Of a stretch of 64,000 nucleotides of DNA, positions 53,459-63,789 are shown piece after piece. Every line of letters starts with the position of its first letter. The first letter of the stretch is position 1. This DNA comes from Qipengyuania vesicularis (GTDB lineage: Bacteria; Pseudomonadota; Alphaproteobacteria; Sphingomonadales; Sphingomonadaceae), in the NCBI RefSeq assembly GCF_019711415.1, contig NZ_JAIGNJ010000002.1:186001-250000 (forward strand), read 5' to 3'. The translations under genes and the position numbers were made by a program. A model generated the notes under the pieces. It did not search any database. It worked only from the letters and a program-made list of their open reading frames with translations, and was not told where the DNA came from.

Positions 53459-53588
53459 GGAACTCCTCTGGGTAGTCTACGACCTGCGATGTGGACCCGG
53501 GGAGGAGTGCCCCTCCTATGGCGAGAGCGGTTGACGATTGCAAGGCACGGGGTGGACTTGATTGCAGGCGAGTCTAAGGACGTTGCCG

Positions 53589-54797
53589 ATGAAACCGGAT
53601 AGCGCACCCCAGGCCCTTCTAGACGCCGTCGACGCAGACACCATGCTGCGCGAGGTGCAGGACTGGGCCGCGATCAATACCGGCACGGCGAATATCGATG
53701 GGCTGAAGGCCATGGCGGGCGTGCTCGCCGATGCCTTCTCGACCCTCCCCGGAGAGGTCGAACTGGTCGATCCGGCAACCGTAACGGCGATTTCCGCCGA
53801 GGGACGAGAATTCGAGAAGCCGCATGGCCAGCATATGGTCTTGCGCGTGCGCCCCGAAGCGGAGCGCCGTTTCGTACTGACCGGCCATATGGACACGGTC
53901 TTCCCTGTCGATCACGCCTTCCAGGAGGTGACGTGGCTCGACGACGAAACGATCAACGGTCCCGGTACGGCCGACATGAAGGGCGGCCTCAACGTCATCC
54001 TGCACACGCTCAAGCTCTTCGAAACGATCGATGGCTCAGACCGGGTCGGCTACGACGTCATGATCAATTCGGACGAGGAGACCGGCAGTCTCGCCAGCCG
54101 CGGCCTGATCGAGGAGCTTGCGCGCGGAAAGTATGCGGCGCTGACCTACGAGCCTTCTGCCCTGCCCGATGGCACACTCGCCCATGCACGCGGCGGAACG
54201 GGCAATTACTCGATCACGATCACCGGGCGAAGTGCCCACGCCGGCCGTAACCCGCACGAGGGCCGCAACGCCATCGTCGCCGCGAGCGATCTCGTCCTGC
54301 GCATCAAGGCGCTCGAGGCCGACGACATCACGGTGAACCCCGCCAAGATCGAAGGTGGTGCGGCAAACAATGTCGTACCCGACCTCGCAATCCTGCGATT
54401 CAATATCCGCCCCAAGTCGACCGATGCGATGAACCGCTTCGATGGCGAGCTCGACGCGATCCTGCGGATGATCGAGAGCGAACACAAAGTCGGCATCCAT
54501 CGTCACGGCGGTGTCACCCGTCCGCCCAAGCCTGTCGATGAAAAGGCGCAGCGCCTGTTCGACCTCGTCAAGGCATGCGGCGCCGAGCTTGGCCAGACGA
54601 TCGGCTGGAAATCGACCGGCGGCGTGTGCGACGGCAACAATATTGCTGCGACCGGCGTCCCCGTGGTCGACACCATGGGCGTGCGCGGCGGCGCCATCCA
54701 TTCGCCCGATGAATTCATGATTGTCCCTTCGCTGCGGGAACGCGCCGCCCTGAGCGCGCTGGTCCTCTCGAAGCTATCTACCGGAGAGTATTTGTGA
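53589..54797 (+). CDS. M20-family zinc hydrolase upstream of astA
   Basis: A 402-residue di-zinc peptidase of the M20 type (carboxypeptidase G2-like). The metal ligands are in LTGHMDTVFP (H and D), NGPGTADMKGG (D), NSDEETGS (E) and the C-terminal IHSPDEF (H). The dimerisation domain includes SAHAGRNPHEGRNA. It removes an N-acyl or glutamate-type group from an amino acid. Its stop overlaps the astA start, and three genes in a row are coupled, so it may be the deacylase step of arginine succinyl degradation. ATG 53589 has TAAGGACG upstream. Confidence 0.88.
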   Translation: MKPDSAPQALLDAVDADTMLREVQDWAAINTGTANIDGLKAMAGVLADAFSTLPGEVELVDPATVTAISAEGREFEKPHGQHMVLRVRPEAERRFVLTGHMDTVFPVDHAFQEVTWLDDETINGPGTADMKGGLNVILHTLKLFETIDGSDRVGYDVMINSDEETGSLASRGLIEELARGKYAALTYEPSALPDGTLAHARGGTGNYSITITGRSAHAGRNPHEGRNAIVAASDLVLRIKALEADDITVNPAKIEGGAANNVVPDLAILRFNIRPKSTDAMNRFDGELDAILRMIESEHKVGIHRHGGVTRPPKPVDEKAQRLFDLVKACGAELGQTIGWKSTGGVCDGNNIAATGVPVVDTMGVRGGAIHSPDEFMIVPSLRERAALSALVLSKLSTGEYL

Positions 54798-55810
54798 CCT
54801 TCCGCCTGCGCGCCGCGCATATTTCCGATCTCGAGCATCTGTATGAAATGGCCAAGCTTACGGGCGGCGGCTTTACGAACCTGCCCGCCGACAAGGCCGC
54901 GCTGACCAAGAAGCTCGAACGCGCCGACGAGGCATTCTCGCGCACCGAGGACACGCTCGGCGATGATGTCTTCACCCTCGTGCTGGAGAATACCGAGACG
55001 GGGCAGGTACGCGGCACATGCCAGCTGTTCACCCAGGTCGGGCAGCAGTGGCCTTTCTACAGCTATCGCCTGAACACGCTGACCCAGCACAGCCAGGAAC
55101 TCGACCGCACCGTGCGCGCCGAACTGCTGAGCCTCGTGACCGACCTCGAAGGCTCCTCCGAAGTCGGCGGCCTGTTTCTCCACCCGGGTGAACGTGCCGG
55201 CGGGCTCGGCCTCCTGCTCGCGCGCAGCCGCTACCTCTTTATCGCGATGCACCGCGCGCGCTTCGCCGACCGCATCCTTGCCGAGCTGCGCGGCGTCATC
55301 GACGATCGCGGCGGCTCGCCGTTCTGGGACGGCGTTGCCGGGCGTTTCTTCGGAATGACCTTCCAGGAAGCCGACTATTTCAATGCCACCAATGGCAACC
55401 AGTTCATCGCCGATTTGATGCCCAAGCACCCGGTCTATGTCGAAATGCTGAGCGAGGAAGCCCGCAAGGTTATTGGCGTACCCCACCCCAGCGGACGGGC
55501 GGCGATGCGCATGCTCGAGAACGAGGGCTTCGCAGCCGAAGGTTACGTCGACATCTTCGATGGCGGCCCGACCATGACGGCGCGGACCGACAATGTGAGA
55601 AGCATTGCAGATTCCAGAGAGGCGACCGTGAGCGCCATCGACCTCGACGAGGGCGAGCGCGCGCTGGTCGCAACCGGCAAGCTCGACAGCTTCAAGTCCG
55701 CCTACGGCATGCGCGCATTCGGAGACGATGAAACAGTCGCCATCGACGCGACATGTGCTGAAGCACTCGAAGTCGGTGTGGGTGACACAGTGTGGAGCGT
55801 GGCACGATGA
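54794..55810 (+). CDS. astA: Arginine N-succinyltransferase
   Basis: A 338-residue acetyltransferase-fold enzyme that transfers succinyl from succinyl-CoA to the alpha-amino group of arginine, the first step of the AST pathway. The N-terminus FRLRAAHISDLEHLYEMAKLTGGGFTNLPAD and the segment SEVGGLFLHPGERAGGLGLLLARSRYLFIAMHRARF with the ADRILAELRGV continuation are diagnostic. Starts with GTG at 54794 overlapping the hydrolase stop; its own TGA overlaps astB. Confidence 0.96.
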   Translation: MTFRLRAAHISDLEHLYEMAKLTGGGFTNLPADKAALTKKLERADEAFSRTEDTLGDDVFTLVLENTETGQVRGTCQLFTQVGQQWPFYSYRLNTLTQHSQELDRTVRAELLSLVTDLEGSSEVGGLFLHPGERAGGLGLLLARSRYLFIAMHRARFADRILAELRGVIDDRGGSPFWDGVAGRFFGMTFQEADYFNATNGNQFIADLMPKHPVYVEMLSEEARKVIGVPHPSGRAAMRMLENEGFAAEGYVDIFDGGPTMTARTDNVRSIADSREATVSAIDLDEGERALVATGKLDSFKSAYGMRAFGDDETVAIDATCAEALEVGVGDTVWSVAR

Positions 55811-57057
55811 GCTTGGTTGAGATCAATTTCGACGGCATCGTCGGCCCAAGCCACAATTACGCGGGCCTCAGCCTCGGCAATATCGCGAGTGCGAGCCACA
55901 AGGGCGACACTTCCTATCCGCGCGCTGCGGCGCTCCAAGGCATCGCAAAGATGCGCTCGAACATGGCGCTGGGGCTTGCGCAGGGCTTCCTGCTGCCCTT
56001 GCCACGCCCGAATGGCGATCTGATCCGTGGACTCGCAATCGACGAGAACGCGCCGCGCCAACTGCTCGCCGCGGCCTGGTCGGCATCGAGCATGTGGACC
56101 GCCAACGCAGCCACCGTGAGCCCGGCTCCTGACACGGCGGATGGCCGCTGTCACCTGACGCCCGCCAATCTCGTCACAATGCCGCACCGCGCGCAGGAAT
56201 GGCAGGACACGCAGGCTCAGCTCGCGATTGCATTCGGCAACGAGCAGCACTTCACGGTGCACGACGCAGTACTGCCCACATTCGGTGACGAGGGTGCAGC
56301 AAACCACATGCGCTTCTGTGAAGGGCACGACGCATCTGGCGTCGAGGTCTTCGTGTGGGGTCGCCAGGGCGGCAAGTTCCCCGCCCGCCAGCACGAGCAG
56401 GCCAGCCGCGCCATCGCACGACTGCACGGGCTTGATCCGGCAAAGTGCGTGTTCATCGAGCAGAATCCCGAGGCGATCGAAGCGGGCGCATTCCACAATG
56501 ATGTGGTCTCGGTCGCGAACGAGCGCGTGCTATTCACCCACGAACGGGCCTTCGCCGATCAGCAGGGCGCCTATGACGCGATCCGCATCGCCTTCCCGGC
56601 ATTGGAAGTGGTCGAGGTGCCCGAAAGCGCCGTGAGCATCGAAGAGGCGGTCCGCAGCTATCTGTTCAACGCCCAGCTGCTCACCCTGCCCAGCGGCGAA
56701 ATGGCTCTGGTGGTACCGAGCGAATGCCAGGAAAGCGCGAGCGTGTGGGCCTATTGCGAGAGCATGCTCGCCAGCAATGGCCCGATCCGCAAAGTCCTGC
56801 CCGTCGATGTTCGCCAGTCGATGGCCAATGGTGGCGGGCCTGCCTGCCTGCGCCTGCGGATCGTTGCGGACCCGGCAACGGTCGACCAGCGTTTCATGCT
56901 GGACGAAGCCAAGGCCGACCGGATCGAGGCCGTCGTCGCGGAGAAGTGGCCGGAGACGATCGATCCGCAAGACCTCGGCAGCGAAGCGCTTGCCGCCCGC
57001 GTTATCGAGGCCCGTGAAGCCCTTCTTTCTGTCCTATCCTTGGACGAGCTGGCCTGA
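55807..57057 (+). CDS. astB: N-succinylarginine dihydrolase
   Basis: A 416-residue hydrolase that removes two ammonia and CO2 from N2-succinylarginine to give succinylornithine. VEINFDGIVGPSHNYAGLSLGNIASASHKG opens it, and the catalytic Glu and His lie in FGDEGAANHMRFCEGH and GAFHNDVVSVANE. The C-terminal cysteine nucleophile is in NGGGPACLRLRIV. ATG 55807 overlaps the astA stop as ATGA. astC and astD are not in the window. Confidence 0.97.
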   Translation: MSLVEINFDGIVGPSHNYAGLSLGNIASASHKGDTSYPRAAALQGIAKMRSNMALGLAQGFLLPLPRPNGDLIRGLAIDENAPRQLLAAAWSASSMWTANAATVSPAPDTADGRCHLTPANLVTMPHRAQEWQDTQAQLAIAFGNEQHFTVHDAVLPTFGDEGAANHMRFCEGHDASGVEVFVWGRQGGKFPARQHEQASRAIARLHGLDPAKCVFIEQNPEAIEAGAFHNDVVSVANERVLFTHERAFADQQGAYDAIRIAFPALEVVEVPESAVSIEEAVRSYLFNAQLLTLPSGEMALVVPSECQESASVWAYCESMLASNGPIRKVLPVDVRQSMANGGGPACLRLRIVADPATVDQRFMLDEAKADRIEAVVAEKWPETIDPQDLGSEALAARVIEAREALLSVLSLDELA

Positions 57058-57153
57058 GCGGAAAACAATATAGTTAACTGACTCGACTCTGTTCGTCGGC
57101 GCTCCTTACACTCGCCCTGCAATTAACCATTGAAAGCCGCAGCAATGCGTCGA

Positions 57154-57169
57154 TGGCACGCAGTTTGCA
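57154..57169 (+). promoter_or_regulatory. Sigma-54 (RpoN) promoter
   Basis: TGGCACGCAGTTTGCA matches the -24/-12 consensus TGGCACG-N4-TTGCA at every position, with GG and GC spaced correctly. The expected start of transcription is near 57180, directly before the ribosome binding site AAGGAAGGA (57183-57191) of the small membrane-protein gene. Confidence 0.75.
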
Positions 57170-57203
57170 GCGGATTTGGTTAAGGAAGGAGTCGCCCACG
57201 ATC

Positions 57204-57464
57204 ATGTGGACCAAGGTGAAGAGGCTGTTCGTGATCAAGACGCGCTGGGAAGCGTATCTGATCATCTACGCCTTGGCGCTCGGTGCCATGACCCGTGGTG
57301 TCGACTATACGCTGCAATACCCCGGCTGGCCCGGCTATCTCCTGATGGCGGCGACCGGCGGCGCGGTCATGCTTGGCGGCGCAAAGATCCTCGACGCGAT
57401 CCGCTACGAGCGCGAAGCGAAGGCCGCGGCGGAAAGCGACGGGCCATCCGCGCCCGATACCTGA
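57204..57464 (+). CDS. Small membrane protein behind a sigma-54 promoter
   Basis: An 86-residue protein. A basic N-terminus (WTKVKRLFVIKTRWEA) precedes two membrane segments (YLIIYALALGAMTRG and PGWPGYLLMAATGGAVMLGGAKIL), then a charged, helical tail (DAIRYEREAKAAAESDGPSAPD), so both ends are likely in the cytoplasm. The ribosome binding site is strong. No family was recognised. The sigma-54 promoter implies inducible expression, for example with nitrogen status, envelope stress (PspF-type) or motility. It may respond to arginine/nitrogen given the neighbouring ast genes. Confidence 0.75.
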   Translation: MWTKVKRLFVIKTRWEAYLIIYALALGAMTRGVDYTLQYPGWPGYLLMAATGGAVMLGGAKILDAIRYEREAKAAAESDGPSAPDT

Positions 57465-63567: not shown

Positions 63568-63789
63568 TCAATCCGCGATCAGGCCGATCGCGAGGTAGAT
63601 GAGCGCAGCGGTGCCCAGGCTGAAGAAGGCGCCGAGGACGAAACCGATGCGGACCCACGTGGTATCGATGCCGGTGTAGCGCCCGATGCCCGAGCAAACA
63701 CCCATCAGCTTGCCGCGCGAATGGTCGAGGCGGAAGCCCTTGCTGGGCGATACGGCGTGGTCGTTTTCACGGAACTTCAGCTGGCTCAT
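63568..63789 (-). CDS. pspC: PspC-domain protein
   Basis: A 73-residue membrane protein. A soluble start (SQLKFRENDHAVSPSKG) leads to the PspC domain (FRLDHSRGKLMGVCSGIGRYTGIDTTWVRIGFVLGAFFSLGTAALIYLAIGLIAD), with one or two membrane segments. PspC acts in the phage-shock envelope-stress response as a partner of PspA/B. Its ATG overlaps the stop of a tiny upstream ORF in an ATGA arrangement. PspA and PspB are not within the window, though upstream sequence is cut off. Confidence 0.9.
   Translation of the reverse strand: MSQLKFRENDHAVSPSKGFRLDHSRGKLMGVCSGIGRYTGIDTTWVRIGFVLGAFFSLGTAALIYLAIGLIAD

Follow-up and report, generated by a model that had tools for sequence, protein, structure and literature searches.

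The DNA analysed here, termed the window, is a stretch of 64,000 nucleotides from Qipengyuania vesicularis (contig C2:186001-250000; GC 0.627). Its segment from 53562 to 57464 is sequentially composed of genes for an M20 hydrolase, astA, astB and a small gene, all co-directional. The neighbours are as the original prediction described them: astA and astB lie upstream, and a CPBP-type (Rce1-like) protease gene is convergent downstream. In 80 named loci, the best of 360 found, astB is always the immediate co-directional upstream gene, and a CPBP protease is downstream in three. Conservation around the small gene extends to M20-astA-astB and not to the protease. The adjacency to astB across genera suggests a possible connection to arginine catabolism. 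The features are listed in Table 1; the astB reading frame may begin earlier than given there, at 55792.

Table 1. Features of the small-gene locus, in window coordinates.
Feature	Position	Strand	Basis
astB (succinylarginine dihydrolase), conserved upstream neighbour, outside the promoter	55810-57057	+	Pfam AstB, 580.7 bits
Motif 1, predicted site of the enhancer-binding protein PrsR, CGTCGGCGCTCCTTACA	57094-57110	+	GTCGG-N6-TTACA near-invariant in 84 distinct composites
Element TTAACCAT, located between motif 1 and the -24/-12 site; matches a CtrA motif variant exactly	57123-57130	+	Position and published variant
-24/-12 sigma-54 promoter, TGGCACGCAGTTTGCA	57154-57169	+	Sequence reading; GG and GC intact in 48/60 loci
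Conserved GGTTAA spanning the predicted start of transcription	57178-57183	+	Composite alignment
Ribosome binding site, AAGGAAGGAG	57182-57191	+	Read from sequence
Gene for the 86-residue predicted helical-hairpin membrane protein, stop included	57204-57464	+	ORF, homologues, codon pattern, structure model

The small ORF is regarded as a gene because it is kept in 59 of 60 same-genus genomes, its own included, and because its substitutions follow a codon pattern (0.17, 0.13 and 0.44 at codon positions 1, 2 and 3). Within the family, the gene is present in 223 of 298 genomes and 68 of 96 genera; it was found in none of 39 genomes of other families in the order. Judged by the protein, the closest named relatives among the best 80 of 360 matches are Erythrobacter vulgaris and Qipengyuania species.

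In the AlphaFold2 model of the 86-residue protein (mean pLDDT 85.5), a short helix at the N-terminus is followed by a hairpin whose two helices span residues 14-38 and 42-78. Twenty-six columns are invariant across 34 sequences. The earlier description of a two-segment membrane protein of unknown family holds: two helices are predicted, and Pfam, NCBIfam and the PDB yield no significant match. Neither Pfam nor NCBIfam returns a family at E 0.001, and the best hit of a PDB profile search has an E of 0.27, indicating no relative. Weaker profile matches are GPR180-TMEM145_TM (E 0.11) and PspM, the latter at E 0.019 and, with 14.9 bits, below its cut-off of 80. Foldseek finds nothing in the PDB at E 0.001 or better with the model, the hairpin being too generic. 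The protein has no match to a PEP-CTERM tail (TIGR02595 or PF07589). Our guess is that this small protein modulates some inner-membrane machine and is produced upon changes in exopolysaccharide or envelope state. One genome (G005) contains a second copy of the protein (L060:2045-2269), which is 36% identical and is accompanied by neither motif 1 nor a sigma-54 site.

The ATG of the small gene is preceded, at a distance of 34 bases, by TGGCACG-CAGT-TTGCA, which fits the consensus TGGCACG-N4-TTGCW in full and is the sole such match in the window. GG-N10-GC is present with consensus flanks, and the 2.71-Mb genome contains one copy of rpoN. The original prediction of a perfect sigma-54 promoter is confirmed on this reading, as is that of a ribosome binding site before the ATG.

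A single perfect match is weak evidence alone, since TGGCACGN4TTGCW is expected by chance 0.017 times per window and 0.73 times per genome. The looser pattern TGGCACN5TTGCW has four exact sites in the genome, a count that proves nothing by itself, 2.33 being expected from composition. The fourth of these sites precedes two genes that we take, from their translations, to be glnK and amtB. Allowing one mismatch gives 81 sites genome-wide against 68 in a reversed control, so no regulon is called from them. The promoter is raised above chance by its place, close before the ATG with AAGGAAGGAG between, and by its conservation. We regard it as most likely real. Counting from the -12 element, transcription would start at about 57180 and leave a leader of about 24 bases.

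An enhancer site had been suggested for the region 57000-57150, and a candidate is found there. This 17-mer, motif 1, ends in CTTACA, departs at two positions from TGTCGG-N5-TTTACA and is separated from the -24 element by 43 bases. Conservation of the pair was assessed in 60 loci, namely 59 orthologues and the second copy. Both elements (motif 1 with at most two mismatches, GG and GC intact) are present in 48 loci, with spacings of 43 bases in 36, 44 in seven and 42 in five. The remaining 12 loci, the second copy included, lack both by the score used, and traces such as TACACT persist in some of them. The original prediction had been staked on -24/-12 elements in orthologous loci; these are kept in 48 of the 59 same-genus orthologues and missing in 11. 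Both this conservation and the rpoN gene in the genome support its idea of a promoter dedicated to the small gene.

The composite of motif 1 and promoter recurs in 76 of 107 further loci, drawn partly from overlapping genomes, and the spacing is 42-44 bases in all of them. Among 84 distinct composites, the expected start is marked by GTTAA. Of 103 loci placed on an astB tree, 75 have both elements, 27 have neither and one (L312) has a motif-1 remnant only. The two elements undergo 11 and 12 changes of state on this tree. Five independent pairs on well-supported branches change in the same direction in nearly all pairings, a number too small for significance (median p 0.06). Read from these alignments, the putative promoter with its upstream 17-mer, GTCGG-N6-TTACA, is conserved across the Sphingomonadaceae.

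Between the two parts lies a third element. TTAAC is located 12-13 bases 3' of motif 1 in 82 of the 84 distinct composites. An ungapped variant of the CtrA motif cited in PMC6180460 is TTAACCAT, and by this identity and its position the TTAACCA middle element appears CtrA-site-like. It may be bound by CtrA, by a protein that bends DNA or by some other factor.

Motif 1 and the promoter resemble an element described for proteobacterial PEP-CTERM genes (Haft 2006; PMC1569441). According to the text of that study, a 17-nt motif ending in TTTACA is followed by a spacer of 32-92 bases (mean 62.8, S.D. 10.6) and a -24/-12 site, and PrsR is the predicted activator for this combination. By this text description, the locus matches in the 17-nt motif, the TTTACA-type 3' end, the -24/-12 site and a spacer inside 32-92, and PrsK and PrsR are both encoded in the genome. 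The same composite pattern also finds a PEP-CTERM gene in another family. As far as the description in PMC1569441 goes, there are also differences. The product here is a small hairpin membrane protein that carries no PEP-CTERM tail, the spacer is near-fixed at 42-44 bases, shorter than the published mean of 62.8 and far less variable than the S.D. of 10.6, and a TTAACCA mid-element is present. Furthermore, the element persists in genomes with no detected exosortase, and the genome itself has exosortase V, not XrtA.

Two further systems bear comparison. DVUA0057 of Desulfovibrio is a PrsR-type regulator, for which PMC3333781 reports five predicted PEP-CTERM targets enriched in DAP-chip. Aquincola pepA depends on rpoN1 and its transcription start has been mapped; as presented in PMC9850573, it resembles the small gene in having a sigma-54 promoter with a predicted enhancer sequence upstream. 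It differs in encoding a PEP-CTERM protein of a betaproteobacterium, and its regulator is a predicted PrsR only.

A scan of 61 genomes with the composite pattern finds it in 23 of 37 same-genus genomes, once in each and always just upstream of the small gene. Outside the genus, it occurs in three of 24 genomes, at the genes L181, L182 and L183 of other families; the reversed pattern occurs in none of the 61. L182 is a PEP-CTERM gene (TIGR02595, 21.3 against a cut-off of 16; Pfam, 23.5 against 20.7). The PEP-CTERM tail matches of L181 and L183 are below the cut-offs, and L183 extends about 35 residues beyond the tail-like stretch.

Exosortase, searched with PF09721, is missing in seven of 37 same-genus genomes. 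Five exosortase-less genomes are at least 99% complete; G015, G023, G025 and G027 keep PrsR and the composite, and G020 keeps PrsR with the composite absent. The predicted element is not tied to an exosortase. On contig C3 of the Q. vesicularis genome (L367:6622-9109), exosortase V is encoded with an EpsI protein and an EpsD-like isomerase, the last below its cut-off.

Clear sigma-54 activators encoded in the genome number six: NtrC, NtrX, PspF, RtcR, PrsR and an unassigned regulator, L067. Two further PF00158 matches, weakly over the cut-off (27.6 and 23 bits), are excluded from this count. PrsR scores 679 bits (cut-off 502.6) and PrsK 432.6 bits (cut-off 300). All but one of the 60 same-genus genomes have PrsR over its cut-off; the exception, G001, also lacks the promoter. 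In the family, 252 of 298 genomes have PrsR matches at E 1e-140 or better, 251 of them over the cut-off. A hand-compiled cross-table of the gene and PrsR in these genomes (both, 201; gene only, 22; PrsR only, 51; neither, 24) gives a Fisher p of 2e-5, kinship ignored.

The composite itself is present in 74 of 91 PrsR-positive genomes (48 of 58 within the genus and 26 of 33 outside) and in five of 13 PrsR-negative genomes. When the PrsR-negative genomes are divided by completeness, none of the six that are at least 99% complete has the composite, against five of the seven less complete ones; those five are 67-97% complete. One of the six, G271, has a sigma-54-like site with three mismatches, and motif 1 is missing. 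Ignoring kinship, the Fisher p for PrsR against the composite is 0.0001 when the PrsR-negative side is confined to the six genomes of at least 99% completeness, 0.002 with all 13 PrsR-negative genomes, and 0.03 for all genomes that lie outside the genus. The 99% cut was set after the data were seen. The PrsR-negative genomes include 12 of the 22 gene-positive ones of the family, those with available coordinates, and ten PrsR-positive comparators were the next in the list, a non-random choice. Since 17 of the 91 PrsR-positive genomes lack the composite, PrsR presumably serves other genes too.

The sole exact occurrence of TGTCGG-N6-TTACA in the genome precedes prsK (contig C2:29850-29866). No -24/-12 site is seen beside this dyad, and a TGT-N11-ACA dyad is present in just seven of 21 prsK upstream regions; autoregulation of prsK is therefore not claimed. 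In one relative that was checked, prsK is located 3' of a glycosyltransferase gene of the XrtA/PEP-CTERM type.

Taken from motif and co-occurrence, the activator of the promoter is probably PrsR, not PspF. The original prediction had pointed to phage shock. In E. coli, the PspF-dependent gene pspG encodes a small two-segment membrane protein and lies away from the main operon under a sigma-54 promoter of its own. The small gene shares with pspG the protein type and the promoter of its own; the activator and enhancer site are different, and no sequence relation is detectable by Pfam and NCBIfam scans, in which the PspG family has no match. The genome does encode pspF, pspA, pspB and pspC, and a second pspC lies, as predicted, about 6 kb from the small gene (PspC ORF at 63568-63789). 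The PspM match described above is the sole sequence hint in this direction. Both psp-type promoters of the genome carry the box GGAATTCCGC, however, and it is missing from 57058-57203, where a PrsR-type element is present instead. PspF is accordingly rejected as the activator, and a PspF-driven phage-shock gene is a very improbable reading of this locus. One of the two psp-type sites (contig C1:113377) is divergent from pspF and stands before a small ORF and pspA, pspB and pspC; this operon opposite pspF (L102:7611-9402) opens with the small ORF MYNRQFFSTT.... The other site (contig C2:250124-250139, minus strand) corresponds to 64124-64139, just past the window end, and reads into a small ORF and the PspC ORF.

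That the promoter is real and obeys another activator, either NtrC or NtrX by way of arginine catabolism or else L067, is unlikely, though less so than phage shock. All three proteins are encoded in the genome, NtrC controls the ast genes in E. coli, astB is the constant upstream neighbour in the 80 named loci (the best of 360 found), and five PrsR-negative genomes retain the element. On the other side, the region upstream of the small gene contains neither TGCACC nor GGTGCA, which we take to be NtrC half-sites, and these were rejected. The element goes along with the presence of PrsR, and the same pattern finds a PEP-CTERM gene elsewhere. We hold it to be equally improbable as phage shock that the -24/-12 match is fortuitous and that expression comes instead from a different promoter or through astB read-through. 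The chance expectation per genome is appreciable, and in promoter-less loci the gene still stands behind astB, which speaks for an additional use beyond the PrsR regulon. Against a chance origin, the -24/-12 site and motif 1 are conserved across many genera at near-fixed spacing with states that change together; the joint changes on the tree and the empty reversed control led us to reject it.

We favour PrsR, and consider it quite likely that the two-component system PrsK-PrsR controls the gene of the 86-residue membrane protein by way of RpoN. What the sequences show directly are the elements, the near-constant distance between them, the way they occur or are missing together, and the genes rpoN, prsK and prsR. 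In the proposed mechanism, the membrane kinase PrsK would phosphorylate PrsR, which would bind the 17-mer motif 1. The intervening DNA would loop or bend, perhaps with assistance or gating from a protein bound to TTAACCAT, and PrsR would activate sigma-54 RNA polymerase at the -24/-12 site. A short mRNA starting near 57180 would then yield the inner-membrane hairpin protein.

PrsK-PrsR is already known as a probable regulator of PEP-CTERM genes, whose surface-sorted products are linked to exopolysaccharide production. The small gene would be a PrsR target that needs no sorting signal and is found with its element across many genera of a large family, which suggests that PrsK-PrsR controls more than protein sorting. 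A widespread protein family without any matching Pfam or NCBIfam model thereby gains a probable regulator. The promoter offers a ready reporter, which could make the PrsK signal testable in sphingomonads.

Outside the window, the genome contains a candidate for a sigma-54-dependent small RNA (contig C1:98957-99191; L107:1501-1735). The stretch consists of a motif 1 with one mismatch, followed by TTAACCAT, TGGCACG-N5-TGCAT, a hairpin and a terminator. No ORF in it was taken for a gene, Rfam returns no family at gathering score, and a plasmid blastn search gives no match. We infer that the stretch is transcribed as a small RNA, which would be a second candidate target of the same promoter type. 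No small RNA with such a promoter was found described in the open-licence PMC literature.

If confirmed, the small RNA would add a post-transcriptional arm to the regulon. A bolder reading takes PrsK-PrsR of the Sphingomonadaceae as an envelope-state switch not mainly concerned with PEP-CTERM sorting, with the hairpin protein and the sigma-54 small RNA as core targets, both gated by CtrA at TTAACCAT; we think this doubtful. New in this analysis are the non-PEP-CTERM target, the persistence without exosortase, the TTAACCA mid-element and a covarying small-RNA candidate that shares the promoter type.

BLAST matches to the small-RNA stretch occur in 33 of 99 genomes, all but one of which belong to the genus; the weakest of these matches are confined to the terminator. 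The promoter alignment uses 24 of 36 match rows, with L228, L230, L233-L236 and six locus-less rows left out. The element spacing is 65/24/41 bases in 23 of these 24 loci and 66/24/42 in one. The RNA alignment has 23 members, L226 being omitted for an insert; its hairpin and terminator together contain 22 pairs, nine of which are changed on both sides. The spacers of the two candidate targets, 43 bases for the small gene and 65 for the small RNA, lie about two helical turns apart.
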